Shown here piece after piece: positions 34,062 through 39,325 of a DNA stretch of 40,688 bases. Both the position numbers and the translations under genes were made by a program. The notes below the pieces were generated by a model. It did no database searches. It worked only from the letters and a program-made list of their open reading frames with translations, and had not been told where the DNA came from. The DNA is from Candidatus Nitrosopumilus sp. Its GTDB lineage: Archaea; Thermoproteota; Nitrososphaeria; Nitrososphaerales; Nitrosopumilaceae. The stretch is from positions 1 through 40,688 of the forward strand of contig JAOTYR010000004.1 in the NCBI GenBank assembly GCA_029861785.1, given 5' to 3'. Each line of letters starts with the position of its first letter. Positions within the stretch are counted from its first letter, which is position 1.

Positions 34062-37000
34062 ATGAGAATTAATTTTATCATTTTAATAATTTCAACGGGT
34101 TTACTTTTTGGAGGATTTGGAATCTCACCTGCGTTTGCTGGCATGACAGTAACCTATAGTTCAAATGGTAACGGATTTTGGAACAGTCCAGGTACTTGGC
34201 TACACGATGACGGTATGGGAAATCAAATAGCAGGAGTTCCCGGAACCGGTGATGATAAATTCATTAGTCATACTGTTACAATTTCCAGTCCAGTTAGCAA
34301 TGCTGGATTAGTTCAAGTTGGTGGGAGTCTAATTGTAGATAGCACTTTAACAAACACCGGTTTTAACGATGGGATGACCACACGTGGAATAATTAATTTT
34401 GGGACTACTACTTTTACCTCAAACGCCGTTTTTAATAATAATGGACTTTATGAAAATTTTGGCGGAACTACAACAATAAATTCTGGTGGTCAATTTTTTA
34501 ACAATTATGCATCAGGCAATGGTCATTTTCACAATGAGCAAGGTGGATTTTTCGTAAATGGAAATCTCACCAACACTGGAGACATTCATCAACTCACAAA
34601 TGGCATTATGGAGGTATCAGGAACATTAGTCAACTCAGGAGTAAATGGAATTTTTGACAATCGTTTTGGTGCTGAGCTCAGAACCGCTTCCTTAGGCACC
34701 ATTAACAATCAAGCAAGCGGTTCAATAAACAATCAAGGTACTTTGAACAACAATCTTGGTTCAATTAACAATTCTGCCACTATCAATAATCAATTTGGAA
34801 CAGGGATAATTAACAACAAAGTTGGAACCCTAAAAAATAACGTAGGTGGCACCATCAACAATCAAGCTTCTAATACGATTAATAATGAAAGTTTAGGAAC
34901 TTTGGATAATTCTGGTGTTATAGAAAATACGGGAACCCTAAACAATATGGGAGTTCTTGACAATGACGGAACAATAAACAACAAACCTACCGGAGAAATA
35001 GAGAACACAAAAACTCTGACCAACAAAGCTAGCGGAATTATAAACAATGAAGAGATTTTTGATACTAGCGACAATTTAGAAAATGAGGGAACAATAAACA
35101 ACAAAAAACCATTTGGAAAAATAGAGAACACAAAAACTCTGACCAACAAAGCTGGTGGTACGATAAACAATGAAGACACGTTAGAAAATCGGGATAAATT
35201 TGACAACGATGGTACTGTTGATAATAAAGAAGACGCTACCTTTACTAATTTTGATGGTGGCACCATAACAAACAATGATCAATTAACAAATAATGGTAAA
35301 ATCACAAACAAGGATACCATTACAAATACTGGCACCATAGACAATGATAATTATTTGGAAAATGAAAAGCAAATAGACAATACAAGTGGGACAATCAATA
35401 ATACTTGCCTAATTAACAATTCTGGAGACGTACCTAACATGGGAGGGATGATAAATAATCAAAATACCATTTCCAATATGGGAATGCTTGCCTTCCAACC
35501 TGGAGGCAAATTTACAAATTCTGGTACTCTTAATGGGAATATGGAAGTAAATATCCTTACAGATGAAATTATTCCAGAAGAAGATAAAATCAAAGGAAGG
35601 ATAGTCATTGTTGCCCCAGACCGTCTAGCAGCCCCAACTGATAAGGTGGGACAGTTACCACTAAAAGGTGTGGAGATGACATTCTTTCATTCTGGACCGC
35701 ATGTAATGGCAGATAGTGACAGAATGGATGGTAATTTTTCTTTTGATGTCCCTACCAAAAAAGATACAGTGTCTATTGAGACTGTCTTAGAAGATGGAGC
35801 ATCTCCAGGTTTTCCAAATGGTTTATTTGAAATACATCATGGGGCGGTGGGAACCCCTGTTAAATTTAAAACTGAAAATTTCAACTCCTGTATCCGAATA
35901 GCATTTTTAGAATTAAGTTCTACAGATCCAGAGTTTAAGTTAAGCGGGAAAGATTCAACACCAATCCTTACTGGACTTTCGCAAGTCGAACGGTTAGCAG
36001 ATCTGGCTGGCCAGTATTATTACTCCTTAATTGCATTTGATTTTATTGTACAACACTTACAAGAAGTAACTTTGGATGACCTCCCATTAAAGGTTGTAGG
36101 CTATTCTTCTGAATCTGTAAAATCAAATTTTTTTCGTAATTCTGACCCTTCGATACATATGGGAACTCCTTATAGCGGAACAAACATTGCTGCCATAGCT
36201 ACCGGAAGTCACACAGAGACCCAGATTGATGTGTTGCTTCATGAATTTGGCCATTATATCACCTATGAGTCCGATATTCATGGAAATAATAATGGCATTA
36301 ATACAGTTAGAACAATTCATCCCACTATTTCAAATATAGTAAGCGAAGGCTGTCATGCCGGATATGCCCAAATAGATTCTTCCTGTGCTTGGAGTGAAGG
36401 AGTTGCAAGTTTTTTCGCCGGAGTAATTGTTGATAAGATGCTTATGGATCCTAATCACGATAAATTTAGTACAACTGTGTTAAAGACTCGAGCGGGAGAT
36501 AGTTATTTTGATACCACATTTTATGATGTTTTTGGTAACAAAAGAAGTGGGATGAAAAATTGGTCTCCCTTATATGAAGAATTTGCAGTAGCAGCATTGT
36601 TATGGGCACTATACAGCCCTTCTTTTGAACCAAGCACATCAAATGACATTAATGATTTGATGATGTTCTTTGGCATTCCAGATGTTAGAACTGTCTCGGA
36701 TCTTTATGACGTTATGAATATTTCAGGATTAGTTACAACTACCAATTTAGATAAGATTTTTGGGAATTACAAAATATGTGTAGATGCAAATATGAATAAT
36801 ACTTGTGATTCTTCAGAAGTCCATGGAGTAACATCTTGGGAAAATATTACAGCTACTGTTAACACTACTAGTACTCTTTTTAGTTATCCTATTCCCATGA
36901 GTGTAGATCCTAGACATGAACCTCCACCTTATTTTCCAAGTATGGTTTCTATTGACATAGAAGATCTAACTGGAAATACAATAATGAATGGCACTGAAGT

Positions 37001-37457
37001 GACAATAGAAACAATTTTGCCAAATAATGATAATCTAAGTCATACTACAGTTGTCTATGATGGAAAACTAAATACTAATTTTCTAATGACGGATGGGTCC
37101 CATGTAAATTTAATTTTCTCTAATGATGACTTTTTTTCCGAGCAAATAACAATTAATGCCGAACAATATTTCAATGGGTTTGGTAATGAAGATCAAATGA
37201 ATTCTCTGACATTTGTGGTTGAAATGGCTCCTAGAGATCCATGTGTTCCTCCAAATTCTGGAAATTGGATTATTACGACTAATTGTGAATTAACAGAAAA
37301 TACAATTGCCAGCGGAAATGTCACTATAACCAATAATTCTTTAATGGAGATCCCTCCAGGAATTACTTTAACCATTGAGTCGGGAAATAATATAACAATT
37401 GAAATGGGGAGTGGCCTCAAAATAATACTTGGTGGAACATTACAAGTTATTTCATAA
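34062..37457 (+). CDS. Giant secreted protein: Asn-rich solenoid + zinc metallopeptidase domain + C-terminal beta-helix-like domain
   Basis: Signal peptide; dozens of [TIL]-N-N/x-x-G-T-I-N-N repeats; HEFGHYITYE (36240-36254) and WSEGVASFFA (about 36390); C-terminal NWIITTNCELTENTIASGNVTITNNS... Confidence 0.9.
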   Translation: MRINFIILIISTGLLFGGFGISPAFAGMTVTYSSNGNGFWNSPGTWLHDDGMGNQIAGVPGTGDDKFISHTVTISSPVSNAGLVQVGGSLIVDSTLTNTGFNDGMTTRGIINFGTTTFTSNAVFNNNGLYENFGGTTTINSGGQFFNNYASGNGHFHNEQGGFFVNGNLTNTGDIHQLTNGIMEVSGTLVNSGVNGIFDNRFGAELRTASLGTINNQASGSINNQGTLNNNLGSINNSATINNQFGTGIINNKVGTLKNNVGGTINNQASNTINNESLGTLDNSGVIENTGTLNNMGVLDNDGTINNKPTGEIENTKTLTNKASGIINNEEIFDTSDNLENEGTINNKKPFGKIENTKTLTNKAGGTINNEDTLENRDKFDNDGTVDNKEDATFTNFDGGTITNNDQLTNNGKITNKDTITNTGTIDNDNYLENEKQIDNTSGTINNTCLINNSGDVPNMGGMINNQNTISNMGMLAFQPGGKFTNSGTLNGNMEVNILTDEIIPEEDKIKGRIVIVAPDRLAAPTDKVGQLPLKGVEMTFFHSGPHVMADSDRMDGNFSFDVPTKKDTVSIETVLEDGASPGFPNGLFEIHHGAVGTPVKFKTENFNSCIRIAFLELSSTDPEFKLSGKDSTPILTGLSQVERLADLAGQYYYSLIAFDFIVQHLQEVTLDDLPLKVVGYSSESVKSNFFRNSDPSIHMGTPYSGTNIAAIATGSHTETQIDVLLHEFGHYITYESDIHGNNNGINTVRTIHPTISNIVSEGCHAGYAQIDSSCAWSEGVASFFAGVIVDKMLMDPNHDKFSTTVLKTRAGDSYFDTTFYDVFGNKRSGMKNWSPLYEEFAVAALLWALYSPSFEPSTSNDINDLMMFFGIPDVRTVSDLYDVMNISGLVTTTNLDKIFGNYKICVDANMNNTCDSSEVHGVTSWENITATVNTTSTLFSYPIPMSVDPRHEPPPYFPSMVSIDIEDLTGNTIMNGTEVTIETILPNNDNLSHTTVVYDGKLNTNFLMTDGSHVNLIFSNDDFFSEQITINAEQYFNGFGNEDQMNSLTFVVEMAPRDPCVPPNSGNWIITTNCELTENTIASGNVTITNNSLMEIPPGITLTIESGNNITIEMGSGLKIILGGTLQVIS
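34560..35560 (+). repeat. Degenerate Asn-rich solenoid repeats inside the 34062-37457 CDS
   Basis: Repeating GTINN/TLTNKA/IENTGTLNN units; 35-nt exact repeat aaatagagaacacaaaaactctgaccaacaaagct at 34996-35030 and 35119-35153. Confidence 0.9.
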
Positions 37458-37486: not shown

Positions 37487-37550
37487 GGCCCACGGGGATT
37501 CACCTACTAAATTGGGGATAGAAATGGACGCCGATTGGCTTGAAAACTAA
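37478..37550 (+). repeat. Dispersed intergenic repeat copy E
   Basis: tatgggcccacggggattcacctactaaattggggatagaaatggacgccgattggcttgaaaac. Confidence 0.75.
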
Positions 37551-39325
37551 CTGAGGGATTCTATTACTTTATCAAAAATTGATGCAGGTTGGGGGCCATT
37601 AATTCGTTCAACAGAACCATCAGAGTCAATAATGAAAAATGTTGGAGTTCCTTCAACATTGTGGGAAGCACCTACCATGTTATTGTGAGAAACTCGCTCA
37701 TCATACTTTCCTGAATCAAGACATTCGTTGAAGACTTCTGTTTCTAATCCCATCTCTTCGGCAAATGTTTTCAAGTTATCAGGACTTGCCCAACCTTCGT
37801 TAATGCCTCCCTGATTATTGTATAAATGAGTATGATATTCCCAATACATTTCCTGATCACCTGCACAATGTGCTGCCTGAGCTGCTGATGTTGAGTCATC
37901 ACCTAACCAGGTATAATCTAAAAAGTACACTTTTGCCATTCCAGTATCGATATGATTCTCAACAATGGTTGATTTTTCATTTTGGAACCATTGATTACAT
38001 TTAGGACATTGGAAATCTCCAAATTCAATAATTGTTATTGGTGCATCAGGGGATCCCTCTAATGGTGCGGACATTGTTACATCGATTCCGCCAATAGACA
38101 TTGTTTCCATAGCATCATCCATTTTTTCTGCAGATTGGATGCCTCTATACCACTCTGCTAAACCCTGTCCAATCTCATCTGGATGATCTTCTTGAATAAA
38201 GTGCATTCCTTCGCCGACATAGAGTGTCTCAAGATTTTTCATATTAGCTTCACTCCAATCTACCATTGGTGAGGGTAAAATAGCCCCAGGACTTACGTAA
38301 AATAATATCTTGGGAATTTCTGTTTCTTGTAACCATTGATTATAATCAGTTACAATCTTCTGAAGGTCCGCAGGTTCTCCATCAATTGGAATCTCATTTG
38401 GCCATACCCATACTGGTTTGCGGCTTTCTTCTGTTGGGTATGGTTCTTGGTAGAAGTTCATCTCCTCCTCAGAAAGCTCTCTTAGTATTCCTCCTGGCAG
38501 CATCTGTTCAACAAAAATATTTTGAGTCATAATCATTTCTTCGCCAACTCCTGGAGTTCTAAAATTCTCAAAGATTTCTCTAAATTCTGCTGGAAATTCA
38601 TCCCATTTCATAGGCATAATGATTGCTTCCATGAATGCAATCCCTTTGATATTGTCCTCATGTTGGCTTGCATAATTAAAACCCAAACCAGAACCCCAAT
38701 CATGAATGACTAGAGTTACATTTTTCAATTCTAGTTCTTCAATAAATTCTTCGAGATATTTTGCATGATCTACAAAACGATAATCAATATCTGGTTTATC
38801 AGATTTTCCCATTCCAATTAAATCCACAGCGATAACTCGTGCATTATCAGAAACGTATGGTATAATGTTTCTCCATAGGTATGACGAGGTGGGATTACCA
38901 TGAAGGAAAAGAATTGGATCACCTTCTCCTTCATCAATGTAATGCATTTTAGAGCCTAAAACTTCAACGTAATGAGATTCAAATGGAAAATCTGCACTTA
39001 TAGCTGAATTAATCATAACATCATCCATCATTTCATCCTCCATGGTATCATCCATCATTTCCTCTGTCATCATTGCGGCAGTTTTTGTTATCGTGCCCCA
39101 ACCAGAATTTTCTAATTTTATTGCAGTAGATGGTTTTACACAAGCTGCAGTTCCTGAGGAACGTAGCATTAAATCAAATCCTGCTTTACATAGAACATCT
39201 TCAGCTGCCGTACCCATTGCCATTTGTTTTCGTGGAGAATCAATATTTCCACCAAATACCACAGGTGAAGAAATTATACCAACTGCAAAAAAGGTAATGA
39301 TCATAAAGAAAAAAATGTTTTTCAT
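37547..39325 (-). CDS. Secreted fusion: 'PACV' module + DhaA-like haloalkane dehalogenase + DsbA-like thioredoxin domain
   Basis: LCKAGFDLMLRSSGTAACVKPSTAIKLENSGWG; FLHGNPTSSYLWRNIIPYV, DLIGMGKSDKPD, VIHDWGSGLGF, GIAFMEAI, GEGMHFIQEDHPDEIG; FGDFQCPKCNQWF, VEGTPTFFI. Confidence 0.92.
   Translation of the reverse strand: MKNIFFFMIITFFAVGIISSPVVFGGNIDSPRKQMAMGTAAEDVLCKAGFDLMLRSSGTAACVKPSTAIKLENSGWGTITKTAAMMTEEMMDDTMEDEMMDDVMINSAISADFPFESHYVEVLGSKMHYIDEGEGDPILFLHGNPTSSYLWRNIIPYVSDNARVIAVDLIGMGKSDKPDIDYRFVDHAKYLEEFIEELELKNVTLVIHDWGSGLGFNYASQHEDNIKGIAFMEAIIMPMKWDEFPAEFREIFENFRTPGVGEEMIMTQNIFVEQMLPGGILRELSEEEMNFYQEPYPTEESRKPVWVWPNEIPIDGEPADLQKIVTDYNQWLQETEIPKILFYVSPGAILPSPMVDWSEANMKNLETLYVGEGMHFIQEDHPDEIGQGLAEWYRGIQSAEKMDDAMETMSIGGIDVTMSAPLEGSPDAPITIIEFGDFQCPKCNQWFQNEKSTIVENHIDTGMAKVYFLDYTWLGDDSTSAAQAAHCAGDQEMYWEYHTHLYNNQGGINEGWASPDNLKTFAEEMGLETEVFNECLDSGKYDERVSHNNMVGASHNVEGTPTFFIIDSDGSVERINGPQPASIFDKVIESLS

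Follow-up and report, generated by a model that had tools for sequence, protein, structure and literature searches.

In M36 fungalysins, HExxH is combined with the Glu of an EGW motif, and in bacterial type IX secretion (T9SS) a C-terminal domain is found on diverse secreted hydrolases. In ammonia-oxidizing archaea (AOA), the sponge symbiont Ca. N. ianthellae has an exported M72 metalloprotease of 2027 aa with hyalin repeats, which was detected in its metaproteome, and exported proteases without a membrane anchor in a sponge AOA were discussed as nutrient-related (PMC6790972). The protein studied here is encoded in the window, that is, the whole stretch of 40,688 nt that was analysed (contig JAOTYR010000004.1 of Candidatus Nitrosopumilus sp., assembly GCA_029861785.1). 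It resembled the M72 protein as a predicted exported AOA metalloprotease joined to adhesion-like repeats. It differed in the peptidase family, taking that of the sponge protein as the paper names it, and in having an Asn-rich solenoid instead of hyalin repeats. Given the M72/hyalin precedent, the combination of a protease with adhesion-like repeats in AOA is not new in kind. A limited literature search found no published description of the architecture in the window or of its peptidase family, characterized by the motifs HExGH, CAWxEG, and EGxVAxxLWDIYD.

An intact ORF occupied exactly positions 34062–37457 of the plus strand and encoded a product of 1131 aa. It opened with a signal peptide and an N-terminal cap, continued through an Asn-rich solenoid and a CnaB-like domain to an HExxH...WxEG peptidase domain, and ended in a 71-aa C-terminal domain set off by a linker (Table 1). 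The cell probably displays this protein on its surface as a protease, with parts of known kinds arranged in an uncommon order. The source organism is very likely an AOA, because every one of the five genus genomes with a completeness of at least 90% encoded archaeal AmoA (PF12942; 7/10 genus genomes overall). The genome holding the window comprised 1.39 Mb in 126 contigs and was 77% complete, and the PF12942 search found no AmoA in it.

Table 1. Features of the protein encoded at 34062–37457, with their positions in the window.
Feature	Position	Strand	Basis
Signal peptide (aa 1–26, ...AFA/G)	34062..34139	+	ORF inspection; strongest hydrophobic windows of the chain all here
N-terminal beta-helix cap (aa 27–80; GFWNSPGTW..GVPGTGDDKF..TVTISSPVSN)	34140..34301	+	Cap pattern common to the G006 orthologue and L112
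Asn-rich beta-solenoid (aa 81–505), period about 6 residues	34302..35576	+	Lag-6 periodicity; all-beta model
CnaB/carboxypeptidase-regulatory-like beta domain (aa 506–632)	35577..35957	+	72% identity to the G006 orthologue
HExxH gluzincin-like peptidase domain (aa 633–905)	35958..36776	+	Profile and hhalign matches to the family
HEFGH (aa 727–731; H727, E728, H731), predicted two zinc ligands and catalytic Glu	36240..36254	+	Family conservation
GCHAGYAQIDSSCAWSEGVA: C764, H765, C775, W777, E779 (predicted third zinc ligand), G780	36348..36407	+	H765, W777, E779, G780 invariant in 11/11
YEEFAVAALLW segment, E840 invariant	36573..36605	+	Family consensus EGxVAxxLWDIYD
Linker/beta domain (aa 906–1060)	36777..37241	+	52% identity to G006
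71-aa C-terminal domain (aa 1061–1131)	37242..37454	+	7 copies in own genome

The signal peptide that the initial annotation had claimed was evident by inspection (MRINFIILIISTGLLFGGFGISPAFA, cut before G), and no segment outside it was strongly hydrophobic. Hydrophobicity windows revealed no other transmembrane segment in the 1131 residues, and no known anchor motif was found in the product. The cap pattern W..TW..VPG..D.K...TV.SS.VSN was present in the window protein, in its orthologue in genome G006 and in a protease-less protein (L112). A Pfam search with the whole chain gave no match of any kind, and NCBIfam and PDB sequence searches gave nothing useful.

A search of 60 relatives with the peptidase region matched one other genome, G006, of the same genus. 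The orthologue there was 1110 aa long, had an identical domain order throughout and shared 59% identity with the window protein. Its neighbourhood was different from that in the window and included topoisomerase VI subunits (by inspection) and other genes. The identity was 68% in the solenoid and 70% in the C-terminal domain (CnaB-like domain and linker, Table 1). The peptidase was the least conserved region (41%), yet its catalytic motifs were kept. The association of solenoid and HExxH peptidase in one secreted chain, as first proposed, is thus shared by a second species. The full architecture is known from these two species alone; eight further species of the genus, some represented by incomplete genomes, yielded no match to it. 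Contig scans for relatives with single-protein queries confirmed none, and no relatives were detected in viral contigs or, with the window protein as query, in plasmids.

The Asn-rich repeats had been estimated at about 330 aa. They proved real but longer, with about 425 aa in which Asn made up 20% of residues vs. 7.5% in the rest of the chain, and the autocorrelation of residue identity peaked at lag 6 (z = 5.1 vs. shuffles). AlphaFold without an alignment produced an all-beta chain with strands often 6 residues apart (pLDDT 62, pTM 0.61, best blocks 85–91). The top Foldseek matches of this model were right-handed beta-helix passengers of Ag43 and other autotransporters, which were below significance (Ag43 type, E 0.02, low TM-score) and did not fix the handedness. 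Filamentous haemagglutinin repeats (PF05594) matched weakly, with 16 bits against a cut-off of 21.5. Autotransporters also differ in that the window protein has no outer-membrane translocator. Heavy glycosylation of the solenoid was considered and rejected, as its 425 aa contained six sequons and showed no enrichment. A stretch of 41 aa was duplicated within the solenoid (aa 308–348 and 349–389; DNA identity 75%, up to 90% over 60 bases). The duplicated block was extra in the window copy and missing as a block from the G006 orthologue. This comparison indicated that the solenoid varies in length while the protease is retained.

The initial annotation had recognized a gluzincin layout, HEFGH followed about 45 residues later by WSEG. 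Both motifs were real, and the distance was corrected: E779 of WSEG (36396–36398) lies 48 residues past the last His of HEFGH, and the corresponding spacing among homologues was 31–50 residues. In an alignment of 11 family members, the Glu and second His of HExxH, H765, W777, E779, G780, F784, and E840 (window numbering) were invariant, and the first His of HExxH was kept in 10 of the 11, the exception being MEYTH at locus L015. Judged by sequence, the protein therefore has the HExxH (HEFGH) and the downstream Glu (E779, 11/11) expected of clan MA(E), and HExxH, second His, W-x-E-G and distal Glu together appear to match the gluzincin ligand layout. A metzincin assignment (e.g., M72 or M12; HExxHxxGxxH) was rejected, since HEFGHYITYES lacks G and H at the required positions. 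The AF2 single-sequence model of the peptidase had a pLDDT of 31, which is too low for reading zinc-site geometry.

With a profile of the two orthologues, weak relatives emerged in a further five genomes of the taxonomic family (E 1e-4 to 1e-2), and their proteins shared a HEYGHH-like motif, C..H, CAWTEGWAxF, and EGxVAxxLWDIYD. Further members of the peptidase family were found across the phylum, and a domain resembling the CnaB-like one preceded the peptidase in other members (weak, by alignment). An independent profile was built from eight members, leaving out the window protein and its orthologue to remove circularity. It recovered the window protein with 38.4 bits over aa 673–866, whereas the best of 200 shuffles reached 7.6 bits, and hhalign of the family against the window protein gave a probability of 97.6% (E 3.4e-12). 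The HEFGH and WSEG motifs are thus judged to be beyond chance, because they lie within the conserved core of the 11-member family and the score far exceeded those of the shuffles. The profile match and the presence of H765, W777, E779, G780, and E840 placed the window protein in this family. It lacked the usual D of LWDIYD. There was no Pfam or NCBIfam model for the family, and a PDB profile search (alignment A7) returned nothing but an irrelevant match (E 0.24).

Distant relatives with 28–35% identity were located on large Embleya and Streptomyces plasmids (H1–H3), with no gene annotated at the match. This indicated that the family is not purely archaeal. In genome G150 (L069, 3442–5658, minus strand), the protease frame stopped just after LWDIYD and the profile went on in another frame, which represented either a truncated gene or a sequencing frameshift. 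The MEYTH member at L015 (genome G096), which is possibly inactive, adjoined another exported protein, and a second similar pair was present in the same genome (L018).

The nearest named family was M36, in which, as in the family here, HExxH is followed by Glu in EG(W) and then by a segment with a conserved Glu. The best PF02128 match among family members, at L016, had an E of 0.0011 and 18.6 bits (cut-off 23.3), and one member weakly matched the NCBIfam model of T9SS-dependent M36 peptidases (E 0.0054). The window protein did not match PF02128 even at E 10, nor the NCBIfam M36 model, and the whole-chain Pfam search detected no fungalysin propeptide domain. PF02128 found nothing in the window's own genome and gave no more than sub-threshold matches in control genomes. 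Membership in M36 was rejected, as the window protein and every family member fell short of the Pfam curated cut-off and the propeptide domain was absent. We describe the peptidase as M36-like and likely to work as a gluzincin, and do not call it M36.

The 71-aa domain, which in the window protein contains NWIITTNCELTENT, had no Pfam match, including to any T9SS-type C-terminal domain. Seven copies were found in the window's own genome, and none ended more than one residue from the stop codon. They were carried by the window protein, a subtilase, a calcineurin-like phosphatase, an NHL plus metzincin-like protein and three repeat/propeller-like proteins. The NHL protein (L003, 1495–3480, minus strand) combined NHL repeats, the metzincin-type motif HEVGHNIGLRH and the 71-aa domain, and is a secreted metalloprotease candidate in its own right. 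Across the family, the domain occurred in 15/251 genomes from several genera, with up to 18 copies in one (loci L002–L007 and L081–L110), and ended secreted subtilases, a calcineurin-like phosphatase, NHL and Kelch propellers and a Spherulin4-like protein. Among 39 inspected matches, 32 ended at most six residues from the stop codon, an approximate count in which some loci were included twice. At L052, a related sequence started a solenoid instead, which suggests that the domain may have originated as a beta-helix cap.

Since one C-terminal domain is shared by unrelated exported proteins, it may mark a common destination for them. A stronger version of this idea, which we put forward tentatively and consider rather less than likely, is that the domain serves a subset of AOA as an undescribed archaeal signal for sorting or envelope retention, carried by subtilases, phosphatases, metalloproteases, propellers and solenoid proteins, and that through it the window protein is displayed as a stalked protease. 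The T9SS C-terminal domain is alike by analogy; the window protein is archaeal and there was no evidence of a T9SS. PEFG-CTERM/archaeosortase proteins likewise have an extreme C-terminal module on secreted AOA proteins. The module here differs as a 71-aa, Cys-containing domain resembling a beta-helix cap. Assignment to PEFG-CTERM was rejected, as the C-terminus had neither a PEFG motif nor a hydrophobic helix and the top hydrophobic windows were all in the signal peptide.

Solenoid and protease also occurred apart. The solenoid was detected in 18 other genomes of the family (E ≤ 1e-5), none of them among the genomes with a detected family protease. In the examples inspected, its partners were RTX repeats (L049), a phosphoesterase with FN3 domains (L052) and little else (L050 and L053–L055). 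The protein at L112 had a window-type N-cap, the solenoid and the 71-aa C-terminal domain in the same order and no HExxH. Conversely, family proteases without the solenoid were combined with MAM/reelin-like domains, Ig/cadherin domains or a proprotein-convertase P-domain. The combination in the window is therefore one shuffled arrangement. The simplest reading is that the window protein is an existing kind of surface protein with a protease cassette placed between its solenoid and its C-terminal domain, because solenoid/cap/C-terminal proteins exist without the protease and the protease occurs on other scaffolds. The peptidase had been pictured as a terminal head, which does not agree with its position between the solenoid and a separate C-terminal domain. 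At L111 (G004), two very large Asn/Thr-rich solenoid proteins were adjacent, both ending in the 71-aa domain and sharing long near-identical stretches, and likely represent a recent tandem duplication.

Here, we propose with moderate confidence that the window encodes a secreted, modular, cell-surface AOA protease on a solenoid, with a zinc site and C-terminal retention. By its sequence, the protein is exported through its signal peptide, and the Asn-rich repeats are predicted to fold as an elongated beta-solenoid that may serve as a stalk or contact surface. The CnaB-like domain would carry a zinc endopeptidase in which, judging from family conservation, H727, H731, and E779 would be the zinc ligands and E728 the residue activating water. 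The C-terminal domain would hold the enzyme at the cell envelope, presumably as it does other hydrolases that have it. Comparison with relatives suggests that a pre-existing protein with N-cap, solenoid and C-terminal domain acquired CnaB plus peptidase by insertion or joining. The enzyme would likely serve to digest or trim extracellular proteins, either at the S-layer or just beyond it. Adhesion, prey or host contact and self-release, which the initial annotation had suggested, are speculative.

Four other explanations were considered. That two genes were fused by an assembly or annotation artefact might be suspected in a genome of 126 contigs, but the chance is negligible, because the frame is uninterrupted and the fused chain recurs in the independent G006 genome between different flanking genes; an assembly error joining solenoid and protease is excluded by that orthologue, with its full architecture, unless one error is common to both assemblies. 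Alternatively, the protein could be a released scavenging exoprotease, which uses its solenoid and C-terminal domain to bind particles or substrate and, away from the surface, supplies a mixotrophic cell with peptides. The lack of any transmembrane segment except the signal peptide agrees with this, as do the anchorless proteases of a sponge AOA that were discussed as nutrient-related (PMC6790972). However, many unrelated exported proteins carry the 71-aa domain at their very C-terminal end, which a shared destination fits better than shared substrate binding, and we consider release unlikely, though not negligible.

The presence of protease and stalk in one chain, and of one C-terminal domain on both proteases and solenoid proteins, could also point to a maturation or self-release protease that acts on its own solenoid or on surface proteins next to it, and not on foreign protein. 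This is improbable: most solenoid proteins of relatives were in genomes without a detected family protease, and no conserved cleavage site was identified. Slightly less probable again is a degenerate, inactive protease domain kept as part of an adhesin. The peptidase diverges fastest (41%), the relative at L015 has lost its first ligand (MEYTH) and the window protein lacks the D of LWDIYD; against this, HExxH, H765, WxEG, and E840 are intact in both orthologues. The use of external protein by autotrophic ammonia oxidizers is debated, and the proposed surface-displayed protease is a candidate for proteolysis bound to their surface. The comparison also portrays exported AOA proteins as assembled from interchangeable solenoid, enzyme and C-terminal modules. 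The unnamed 71-aa domain may mark a surface-targeting route, and may prove a more general discovery than the protease.

The neighbouring gene (37547–39325, minus strand) combined a WING-49 domain, a haloalkane dehalogenase (NCBIfam E 1e-132) and a DsbA-like thioredoxin domain in one frame. Its counterpart in G006 was a 321-aa frame covering only query residues 1–106 and 402–592, without the dehalogenase. The enzyme was apparently inserted into an exported thioredoxin protein.
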